Notes under the pieces: generated by a model | Seen by the model: the letters and a program-made list of their open reading frames with translations, nothing else | Databases searched by the model: none | Told to the model about the DNA's origin: nothing | Shown: positions 20,685 to 23,734 of the stretch, piece by piece | Position numbering within the stretch: the stretch's first letter is position 1 | Layout of the letters: the number at the start of each line of letters is the position of its first letter | NCBI GenBank assembly: GCA_030148905.1 | Contig: JASBSO010000075.1 | Coordinates: forward strand, 1-47,808 | Length of the DNA: 47,808 nucleotides | DNA from: Kordiimonadaceae bacterium | GTDB taxonomy: Bacteria > Pseudomonadota > Alphaproteobacteria > Sphingomonadales > Kordiimonadaceae | Direction: 5' to 3' | Position numbers and translations under genes: made by a program

Positions 20685-21965
20685 TTATTCGGCGGCGATG
20701 AATTGCGCGCTTTCGGTCGACTCGCTCATGGCGGTCGTGGATGCCTGCCCACCGGTGATCGCCGTTGTCACCTGGTCGAAATAGCCGGTGCCCACTTCGC
20801 GCTGGTGGCGTGTGGCGGTATAGCCGTGGTCTTCGGCACCGAATTCGGCCTGTTGCAATTCGCTGTAGGCCGCCATGCCGCGGGCCTTGTAGCCGCGCAC
20901 CAGTTCGAACATGCCGTAATTGAGGCTGTGAAAGCCCGCCAGCGTCACAAACTGGAATTTATACCCCATGGCCCCCAGCTCGCGCTGGAACTTGGCGATG
21001 GTGTCGCGGTCCAGATTGGCCTCCCAGTTGAACGACGGCGAACAGTTATACGCCAGCATCTTGTTCGGGAATTCCTTATGGATTGCTTCGGCAAAGCGCT
21101 TGGCATCATCAAGATTGGGGGTTGATGTTTCCCACCACAACAGGTCGGCATAGCGGGCAAAGGCCAAACCGCGCGCAATACAGTGGTCAACCCCGGCATT
21201 GAGGCGGAAATACCCCTCGGGTGTGCGGTCATCGCGGTCGGTGATGAACGCGTGGTCGCGCTCGTCAATGTCCGAGGTCAGCAGCTTGGCCGATTCGGCG
21301 TCGGTGCGCGCCACCACCAGCGACGGCACACCGCACACATCGGCGGCCAGACGGGCTGCGATCAGGTTGCGTTCGTGCTGCGCGGTTGGGATCAGAACCT
21401 TGCCGCCCAAATGACCGCATTTTTTCTCGGCGGCCAGCTGATCTTCATAGTGAACACCGGCAACGCCCGCCTCGATATAGGCCTTCATCAGCTCGAAACT
21501 GTTGAGAACGCCGCCAAAGCCCGCTTCGGCGTCGGCAACAATGGGGGCAAACCAGTCGCGCTTGGCACCACCCTCAGCATGTTCAATCTGGTCGGCGCGC
21601 TGCAGGGCGCGGTTGATCTTTTTGGCAAGTTCGGGCCCGGAATTGGCCGGGTAGAGCGACTGATCAGGATACATGCTGCCGGCGGTGTTATTATCAGCGG
21701 CGACCTGCCAGCCCGACAGGTAAATCGCCTTGAGGCCGGCGCGCACCTGCTGCACCGCCTGGTTGCCGGTCATCGCACCGAGCGAATTGACATAATCCTC
21801 GCTGTGCAACAGCTCCCACAGCCGCCGCGCGCCGCGGTCTGCCAGCGTGTATTGAATCGGCACCGACCCGCGCAGGCGCAACACCTCGTCGGGGCTGTAG
21901 GGGCGCTCGATACCGTCAAAGCGGCCTTCGGGACAATTGGGGATCAGGTCTTCAAATCGGGTCAT
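20685..21965 (-). CDS. aceA: Isocitrate lyase
   Basis: This 426-residue enzyme cleaves isocitrate to succinate and glyoxylate, the entry step of the glyoxylate shunt used for growth on acetate and fatty acids. The catalytic loop KKCGHLGGK is at 181-189 with Cys183. '[20 protein letters not shown]' and '[12 protein letters not shown]' match the family. The frame is open to 22022, but the true start is the ATG at 21965, with GGAG 8 bases upstream and the usual 'MTRFEDLI' N-terminus. It is divergent from a regulator of the short-chain-acyl-CoA type, with an AT-rich operator-like region between. Confidence 0.96.
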
Positions 21966-22054
21966 TGGCTTTACTCCACAAATGCGGCACCACGGGCCGC
22001 GCTGTCTCCATGCCCCAACCATAGGCCGCCTGATGCGGCCAACCTACGACAATA

Positions 22055-22121
22055 TTTACAAAAAACGTCTATATGTACATTATTGTAATTGTAAATTTGT
22101 TTATTTGTAAATTTTGTAAAT
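22055..22121. promoter_or_regulatory. AT-rich operator region with repeated TTGTAAA motifs between aceA and its divergent regulator
   Basis: The region contains TTTACAAA (22055-22062), TTGTAA (22083-22088), TTGTAAAT (22089-22096) and a tandem pair TTTGTAAA (22104-22111 and 22113-22120). Regulators of the ScfR/RamB family are known to bind TTTGCAAA-type sites, so these are good candidates for autoregulation and aceA control. The composition is strikingly AT-rich against the GC-rich flanks. The family link is established knowledge; the assignment of these repeats is inference. Confidence 0.6.
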
Positions 22122-22282
22122 GTGGCTAATATCCCTCAAGGATCACATGGCAGCAGGCTTGTCTCGGGTCTGCTGGCCTTTGCCGCCCGGCTAGGCTGGC
22201 GCATTTTTGGCCTCTATACCCAGAGGCGCCACCGCTTTGCGGTGCAGGCGCTCAAATGGACATGACAGAACAAGGACCACCA

Positions 22283-23734
22283 ATGGCGGCAGACCAGAAT
22301 GACCGCAGCGCATCGAAAAAGCTGTTTGCAGGGCCGCGCATTCGTCGTTTGCGCCGCGAGGCGGGCATGAGCCAGGCTGAAATGGCCACTGCGCTGGGGT
22401 TTTCCGCCAGTTATCTCAATCTGGTTGAGCGCAATCAGCGCCCGGTGTCGGCGCAGCTGTTGCTGCGGCTGGCGGATGTGTTCGATGTCGAGCTGAACGC
22501 CTTTGCCGGCACGGACGAAGCGCGTGCCTTTGCTGACCTCAGCGAGATTTTGGCCGATCCGCTGTTTAAAGGCTTGGCGATCAGCCGCGCCGACATGCAG
22601 GACCTAGTCGATACCGTGCCAAGCGCGGTGGATGCTTTTGCTCGGCTGTACGGCGCGCTGGGGGAGGCGCGGGCGCAAACCAGCGCGATCACCACCCGGC
22701 TTCAGGCGTCCGACGCCCAGCGCGATGATCCCAGCTTCCCGGTGGCCGAGGTGCGCGACTATATCCAAGCACAACGCAATTACTGGCCCGAACTGGACGA
22801 GCGCGCCGAAGCGCTGTCGGTCGAGATGGGCTTGCGGGGTGATGATCCGTTTCTCCTGATGTCGGCCCGCCTTGAAGACCAGCACGGCGTGCGCGTGCGG
22901 GTGATGCCCGCCGAGGTGATGGGCGCGCGTTTACGACACTTTGACCGGCACCGGCGGCAAATCCAGCTGTCGGAACTTTTGGACGCGCGCGGGCGCCAGT
23001 TTCAACTGGCCCAGCAGCTGGCCCAGCTTGAATTTGCCCCGCTGGTCACCCCCCTGATCACCAATCACGATTTCAAGTCTGACGAAGCCCAGCGGCTGGC
23101 GCGCATTACGCTGTTTAATTATGTCGCGGGGGCGGTGCTGATGCCCTATGACCGCTTCCTCGCCGATGCCAAGGCGCTCCATTATGATATCGACCATCTG
23201 GGCCGCCGCTACGGCACCAGTTTCGAGCAGGTCTGCCACCGGCTCACCACGCTGCAGCGCCCCGGCAATAAGGGGGTGCCCTTCTTTTTCCTGCGCGTCG
23301 ACAAGGCGGGCAATGTCTCAAAGCGGTTTTCGGCGGGGCGGTTTCATTTCTCCAAATTTGGCGGCACCTGCCCCTTGTGGAATGTGCATGACAGCTTTGC
23401 CAACCCCGGACGGATCATCACCCAAATCATCCAAATGCCCGACGACACCACCTATTTTTCAGTGGCGCGCACGGTCGACCGCCAGGGCGAAACCTACGGC
23501 GCGGTCGACAACCGCCTTGCCGTTGCACTGGGCTGCGACATCGCCTTTGCGGGTGAGCTGATCTATGCGCGCGGCCGCGACCTGGGGGCACCCGACCCGG
23601 TGCCCGTGGGGCCGACATGCCGGTTGTGCGAACGCCCCGCTTGTGCCGCGCGGGTCACGCCGCCGCTGTCGAAAACCCTGATGGTCGATGAACGCTCACG
23701 TGGTGTCGCATCGGTCGATTTCGCGCAAGAGTAA
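22283..23734 (+). CDS. XRE-family regulator of the short-chain fatty acyl-CoA (ScfR/RamB-like) type
   Basis: This 483-residue regulator has an N-terminal XRE helix-turn-helix (about 18-72, 'GMSQAEMATALGFSASYL'), a large ImmA/IrrE-related middle part in which I see no HEXXH protease motif, and a C-terminal DUF2083 region with the motif 'CRLCERPAC' (Cys446, 449, 454). Relatives (RamB, PccR) sense short-chain acyl-CoAs and control acetate or propionate use. The ATG at 22283 has AGGA 6 bases upstream; the earlier ATGs at 22256 and 22262 lack such a site. Divergence from aceA strongly suggests it controls that gene. Confidence 0.88.
   Translation: MAADQNDRSASKKLFAGPRIRRLRREAGMSQAEMATALGFSASYLNLVERNQRPVSAQLLLRLADVFDVELNAFAGTDEARAFADLSEILADPLFKGLAISRADMQDLVDTVPSAVDAFARLYGALGEARAQTSAITTRLQASDAQRDDPSFPVAEVRDYIQAQRNYWPELDERAEALSVEMGLRGDDPFLLMSARLEDQHGVRVRVMPAEVMGARLRHFDRHRRQIQLSELLDARGRQFQLAQQLAQLEFAPLVTPLITNHDFKSDEAQRLARITLFNYVAGAVLMPYDRFLADAKALHYDIDHLGRRYGTSFEQVCHRLTTLQRPGNKGVPFFFLRVDKAGNVSKRFSAGRFHFSKFGGTCPLWNVHDSFANPGRIITQIIQMPDDTTYFSVARTVDRQGETYGAVDNRLAVALGCDIAFAGELIYARGRDLGAPDPVPVGPTCRLCERPACAARVTPPLSKTLMVDERSRGVASVDFAQE

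Follow-up and report, generated by a model that had tools for sequence, protein, structure and literature searches.

In Paracoccus denitrificans, the operator arrangement of RamB is already worked out, and it is common to many related bacteria. RamB of this organism activates a glyoxylate-cycle operon via two near-identical boxes with an 18-bp spacer (Kremer 2023, PMC10370305). The same study reports that mutating one or both boxes abolished reporter expression, that in vitro binding was abolished when both boxes were mutated, and that acetate-triggered Icl was absent in a ramB deletion mutant (PMC10370305). The P. denitrificans locus was recovered here with a published oligonucleotide and its boxes were taken from oligonucleotides 46 and 48 (Table 3, PMC10370305), the 14-bp box length being our own derivation from the 80-bp fragment. 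On the ramB strand, these boxes read AGTCAGTATTGTCA and TGTAAGGTTTGTCA and consist of TGTMA-type units (M = A or C) that are 9 bp apart. In M. tuberculosis, a 17-bp site with a period of 9, TTTGCAAA-N-TTTGCGAA, has been described for PrpR (and RamB) (PMC6765138).

The locus reported here lies in a 47,808-nucleotide stretch of DNA from a Kordiimonadaceae bacterium (contig JASBSO010000075.1, positions 1 to 47,808), which was analysed as a whole and is referred to below as the window. An AT-rich island in this stretch very probably serves as operator for the neighbouring ScfR regulator, which would be a class 2 RamB of the P. denitrificans kind that activates the isocitrate lyase gene, aceA, and autoregulates its own gene, ramB. 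The evidence read from the sequence consists of the repeat array, its geometry, its conservation, the phylogenetic grouping of the regulator and the rarity of the box in the genome. Binding, aceA activation and an oligomer switch are proposed by analogy with P. denitrificans, and autoregulation is suggested by position, since the distal box overlaps the candidate ramB promoter. An uncharacterised aceA switch can thus be placed in a known regulatory family.

The aceA-ramB locus and its repeat array

The isocitrate lyase encoded by aceA (20685-21965, minus strand) scored 744.5 bits against the NCBIfam isocitrate lyase model, and ramB (22256-23734, plus strand; start ATG at 22256 or 22283) encodes a protein of the ScfR family (PF09856 ScfRs, 1e-63), confirming an earlier sequence-only reading in which aceA was placed beside a divergent ScfR/RamB-like regulator. 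The start codons of the two divergent genes are separated by 290 bp. The sequence itself and the alignment start in a relative (L015) place the aceA start codon at ATG 21965-21963, behind a GGAG ribosome-binding site at 21977-21974 on the minus strand, and the 445-aa aceA ORF beginning at 22022 is probably over-long. An inverted repeat, GGCCGC-CTGAT-GCGGCC (22024-22040), lies in the presumed aceA leader and was kept out of the operator.

Between aceA and ramB, an AT-rich island of 71 bp (22053-22123) has a GC content of 16.9%, and the 100-bp intervals outside it between 21001 and 23200 range from 51 to 75% GC. The regulator strand of the island carries TGTAA at 22084, 22090, 22106 and 22115, as well as TGTAC at 22074 and TGTTTA at 22098, in agreement with the previous count of at least four motifs. 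These motifs had been described as 'TTTGTAAA/TTTACAAA-like'; the repeats do exist, but this wording is slightly misleading, as all units point one way except TTTACA at 22055, the sole unit with the other orientation. The core of the array is a direct repeat with a period of 9, TTTGTAAA-T-TTTGTAAA (22104-22120, plus strand), which represents the proximal candidate RamB box. The distal candidate box, TGTACATTATTGTAA (22074-22088, plus strand), is formed by the half-sites at 22074 and 22084, which are 10 bp apart, and matches the P. denitrificans box AGTCAGTATTGTCA in position. Two extra half-sites, TGTAAA at 22090 and TGTTTA at 22098 (22090-22103, plus strand), lie between the two boxes; units at these places are repeated in close orthologues and absent from P. 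denitrificans.

A scan for four TGTMA units in which the spacing within a box could be 8-10 bp gave the best score at a start-to-start box offset of 32 bp in both the window and P. denitrificans, with 1 of 20 positions mismatched in each; the spacing inside the window boxes is 10 bp for the distal (22074-22088) and 9 bp for the proximal one (22106-22120). The corresponding 48-base stretches are identical at just 19 positions; therefore, the half-site pattern is what the two loci share. The T-for-C change and the 9-base tandem spacing had both been regarded as departures from the described form, a view that the published sites do not bear out: the P. denitrificans RamB boxes are TGTMA-type (PMC10370305), and 9-bp spacing is found in these boxes (PMC10370305) as well as in the PrpR site (PMC6765138), so that both features fall within the described range.

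When the AT-rich segment itself was subjected to 5,000 dinucleotide shuffles, P values of 0.010 for the TGTAA count, 0.007 for the TGTAAA count and 0.004 for a TGTAAA pair at 8 or 9 bp were obtained, and the single TTTACA was not significant (P = 0.11). Since the segment and the motif were picked after being seen, these P values are optimistic and conservation represents the stronger test. In the 2,696,019-base genome, TGTAAANNTTGTAAA was found as one exact match, in the island, and one match with 1 mismatch; a control in which the pattern was reversed likewise gave two genome matches at up to 1 mismatch, indicating that the box is rare rather than enriched. The second TGTAAANNTTGTAAA match falls within an ORF whose product weakly matches sucrose hydrolase.

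A wider regulon with the same box was considered and rejected, given that this other match lies inside an ORF and none was found upstream of aceB. The malate synthase A gene, aceB, is located on another contig of the same genome (L114:4042-10476, contig C75), away from aceA, and directly follows xdhA-xdhB-xdhC of a xanthine dehydrogenase cluster, which suggests that glyoxylate from purine breakdown may feed malate synthase A. No TGTMA unit was found on either strand in the 300 bp upstream of aceB. Judged by the TGTAAANNTTGTAAA box, RamB would control aceA and itself only.

A candidate ramB promoter, TATTTA-N17-TACATT (22053-22081, plus strand), was predicted by alignment with a TTGATA-N17-TATG element of the relatives, which is present just upstream in 15 of 24 close orthologous loci, the last -10 position being T in 9 of the 24. 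The window carries this degenerate version and not TTGATA-N17-TATG itself. It is plausible that TTGATA-N17-TATG represents the ramB promoter of the close loci and is overlapped by the distal box. For aceA, no promoter elements were recognised. The leader from the array to the ramB start in the window (22121-22255) is 135 bp long, its P. denitrificans counterpart being 1 bp, and inspection by eye shows short reading frames within it that end at TAG.

Conservation, grouping and the recognition helix

Among the 98 genomes searched (the window's own and relatives), a regulator match at E 0.001 was found in 76, many of these matches covering the HTH only. The close set comprised 24 loci, the window and its 23 best orthologues (56-66% identical). 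Twenty-one of these loci have malate synthase A as the divergent gene, two (the window and L015) have aceA, and in one the divergent gene matches none of the three query proteins. TGTMA pairs, defined as two units 8 or 9 bp apart on the regulator strand, were found in 20 of the 24 close loci, compared with one on the opposite strand and a mean of 0.28 in 200 shuffles; a reversed-sequence control in these close, AT-rich loci gave 8 of 24. In 72 wider loci, which are mostly the class sample and include MccR- and PccR-type relatives as well as L059 and L060, such pairs were found in 29, with 2 on the opposite strand, a shuffle mean of 0.21 and none in the reversed control. In loci sampled from the window's class (presumably Alphaproteobacteria), the RamB-type repeat thus recurs next to ScfR genes, and the refuting outcome named in the earlier reading, a lack of conservation in relatives, was not observed. 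Together with the likeness to P. denitrificans, this conservation makes it very probable that the array is, as had been proposed, the operator of the adjacent ScfR/RamB regulator. A reading of the repeats as a lone oddity of the window was discarded, as they also occur in the close orthologues and in the class sample.

Most close orthologues were seen by eye to have ..TTGTATG..TTTGTAAATGTCAAAATGTNAANATGTAAANTTTGTAAA in common; in the operator alignment, one locus, L003, is mis-anchored. In 9 of the 24 close loci (L005, L007, L009, L010, L011, L015, L016, L019 and L020), a conserved inverted repeat, GYAAY-N3-RTTRC, lies on the side of the array that faces aceB/aceA, 138-176 bp ahead of the codon that aligns with residue 19 of the window's regulator. 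No copy of this inverted repeat, which may be a binding site for a second regulator, was found in the window.

The window regulator contains an XRE HTH (PF13560/PF01381), an IrrE-like PF06114 and a PF09856 domain, all above cut-off, and four cysteines, C372, C455, C458 and C463, that correspond to PrpR C363 and C-X2-C-X4-C. All 101 aligned ScfR proteins retain these Fe-S cysteines; the cysteines and the domain set both place the window protein in the ScfR family. Its best match in P. denitrificans is RamB (47% identity, 456 bits). The second, L034 (368 bits), is divergent from prpD, which identifies it as MccR. The third, L035 (319 bits), lacks a nameable neighbour in the flanking frames that were tested; the PccR-like Pden_4472 is likewise described without a nameable neighbour in the published account (PMC10370305), and we infer L035 to be PccR-like. 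A further ScfR match in the P. denitrificans genome (G098, C54:224644-225911) is in two pieces (L036 and L038) and adjoins MccR, with part of it seen as a frame in L034; it is perhaps a broken paralogue.

A tree of 101 ScfR proteins, obtained by a quick search with no bootstrap, placed the window regulator and P. denitrificans RamB in one clade of 54 rows (clade B; SH-aLRT 97) and L034 and L035 among the other 47 rows (clade A). L059 and L060, for which the chosen starts gave 11- and 15-aa reads, and L033, a second P. denitrificans RamB copy, were left out of this tree. We infer that clade B corresponds to the published class 2 network cluster. The window regulator groups with P. denitrificans RamB, is divergent from a glyoxylate-cycle gene and has the two-box geometry, as expected for a class 2 RamB. 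Class 1 RamB was rejected as an assignment, with a score of 445.1 bits against the NCBIfam equivalog NF038139, which has a 700-bit cut-off. At the position of PrpR F155, where bulky aromatic residues are reported to retain upregulation (PMC6765138), both the window protein and P. denitrificans RamB have Val, as do 38 of the 54 clade B and 13 of the 47 clade A proteins.

The 32-bp box offset was found in 17 of the 24 close loci, but their dense arrays score at many other offsets too. Among the remaining clade B loci, with up to 3 mismatches accepted, 32 bp is not a peak (2 of 30 loci, with 9 of 30 at 31 bp), and in clade A it is a peak (15 of 47 loci). TGTMA pairs are present in 39 of 54 clade B and 15 of 47 clade A loci, and TTTGCAAA-like sites in none of the 54 clade B and 13 of the 47 clade A loci, clade A being mixed.

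The set was extended to 154 ScfR loci by adding 53, including beta-proteobacterial and actinomycete plasmid loci, to the 101; L128, L129, L131 and L138 were left out as repeats of genes already included. In the predicted recognition helix, the residue preceding [ILMV]E was read as Leu in 109 of these loci, Gln in 37, His in 5 and Met in 1; it was not read in 2. Among the 109 Leu loci, 71 have TGTMA pairs only, none has TGCRA pairs only, 2 have both and 36 neither; among the 37 Gln loci, none has TGTMA only, 19 have TGCRA only, none has both and 18 have neither. The 8 loci with another or an unread residue comprise 7 with neither pair type and 1 with the C type only. All 90 scorable loci, i.e., those with Leu or Gln and one half-site type, therefore combine either Leu with TGTMA or Gln with TGCRA. 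When the first 80 residues were excluded from tree building, each trait, helix residue and half-site, changed a single time; with one evolutionary switch, the association of Leu/Gln with T/C is a lead and not proof of causality. It provides a one-residue hypothesis for the change of DNA code in the ScfR family, in which, if true, TTTGC-type sites would be read by Gln and TTTGT-type sites by Leu, following one ancient switch. In related repressors such as 434, this helix position contacts bases. Searches of the open-licence literature found no paper pairing ScfR with the recognition helix and none joining TTTGTAAA with isocitrate lyase.

One locus, L075 (G361), contains two adjacent convergent ScfR genes, of which one combines Leu with TGTMA pairs and its neighbour Gln with a TGCRA pair. 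The five loci with His at the helix position (L070, L081, L126, L127 and L132) are RamB-like and have neither half-site pair type; two of them, L070 and L081, show TGTGAC-like repeats upstream on inspection by eye.

Mode of action and candidate signal

In the proposed mechanism, RamB, probably acting as CoA-ester-dependent dimers or tetramers, would bind the boxes at 22074-22088 and 22106-22120, which start 32 bp apart and flank the two further half-sites. A short acyl-CoA that accumulates in cells growing on acetate or fatty acids may provide the signal, upon which RamB would switch on aceA, transcribed away from the array, and would limit its own gene, with the candidate ramB promoter overlapping the distal box.

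RamB of C. glutamicum represses, and the array could be a RamB operator from which aceA is repressed until a CoA ester relieves repression. Consistent with this, M. tuberculosis RamB has been termed more likely a repressor (PMC6765138), the corresponding P. denitrificans section is headed 'activator and repressor' and proposes a repressing tetramer (PMC10370305), and the extra half-sites in the window could hold a larger bound complex. The tested class 2 RamB, however, activates, as seen from the loss of acetate-triggered Icl in the deletion mutant (PMC10370305), and the window protein, at 445 bits, is below the 700-bit cut-off of the RamB equivalog. Activation of aceA is therefore clearly favoured, and repression is unlikely, if still to be reckoned with.

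AT-rich islands are common at divergent promoters. The repeats could thus be the site of another transcription factor or an AT-rich promoter element, with ramB lying next to them incidentally, all the more as the RamB site here is a prediction. This is improbable, however: the repeats are strand-specific, regularly spaced and kept beside the regulator with differing divergent genes, no TGTMA unit occurs in the 300 bp upstream of aceB, a gene that lies apart from ramB, and the half-site type tracks the recognition helix in all 90 scorable loci. That chance produced the array, through the base composition of an AT-rich spacer with many TTTG and TAAA words, is scarcely credible, because even though the 71-bp segment is 17% GC and the reversed control pattern matches the genome as often as the box does, P is 0.004-0.010 against the segment's own dinucleotide shuffles (post hoc) and the strand-specific repeats are conserved in relatives and across the class sample.

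In vitro, P. denitrificans RamB is reported to respond to ethylmalonyl-CoA-pathway esters, and most to beta-methylmalyl-CoA (PMC10370305). The reported ratio of dimers to tetramers was 9:1 with beta-methylmalyl-CoA, 3:1 with crotonyl- and mesaconyl-CoA and 1:1 with free CoA (PMC10370305). Crotonyl-CoA carboxylase/reductase (Ccr) was found above the family cut-off in 21 of the 98 genomes searched, but in none of the 29 genomes of the window's family, its own genome (a 93.5% complete draft) included, and in none of the 24 genomes with a close RamB orthologue. At 1e-20, PF19315 (mesaconyl-CoA hydratase) was found neither in the window's own genome nor in 7 of the 21 Ccr genomes, which makes it a poor marker that adds little; within the window's family, a partial match was seen in G001 alone. 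Ccr is present in 5 of 18 clade B genomes of the class sample, so RamB does not exclude Ccr in general.

The pathway that supplies the published RamB ligand thus appears to be missing in the window's organism, and the signal here is probably another CoA ester and not an ethylmalonyl-CoA-pathway intermediate, since Ccr was found neither in the genome nor in the family; crotonyl-CoA, or another CoA ester linked to beta-oxidation or PHB, would be a guess. Our tentative suggestion, put forward as somewhat short of an even chance, is that RamB works without the ethylmalonyl-CoA pathway by sensing a common CoA ester (e.g., crotonyl-CoA), that is, one made by any beta-oxidising or PHB-making cell; the two DNA codes of the ScfR family are a separate and weaker lead. 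If this suggestion is true, the link of RamB to ethylmalonyl-CoA-pathway intermediates would be a special case for a regulator type whose residues at two pocket positions and whose two-box operator are shared here. The apparent absence of the pathway makes the question of the RamB signal testable in a simpler background.

Comparison with known ScfR systems

By comparison with actinomycete RamB of the C. glutamicum type (class 1), the window shares the arrangement in which an ScfR gene adjoins isocitrate lyase, as seen in Tsukamurella and Streptomyces plasmid loci; these loci, however, have Gln in the recognition helix, where the window has Leu, and neither half-site pair type upstream. M. tuberculosis PrpR belongs to the same family by sequence (294 bits) and its described site likewise consists of tandem 8-mers with 1 bp between them, but the PrpR half-site has C in place of the window's T and its pocket has F155 where the window protein has Val (PMC6765138).

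The closest described system is P. denitrificans RamB (Pden_1365, class 2). The window differs from it in having two added half-sites between the boxes and a 10-bp distal spacing, in a longer ramB leader, with the array 135 bp and not 1 bp from the start, and in a divergent gene that is aceA and not aceB-icl; moreover, Ccr was not found in the window's genome, so an ethylmalonyl-CoA-pathway ligand is probably not used. The two systems nevertheless have in common a divergent glyoxylate-cycle gene and two TGTMA direct-repeat boxes 32 bp apart, and their regulators fall in the same clade, carry V and L at the pocket positions of PrpR F155 and K217 and possess the same Fe-S cysteines.
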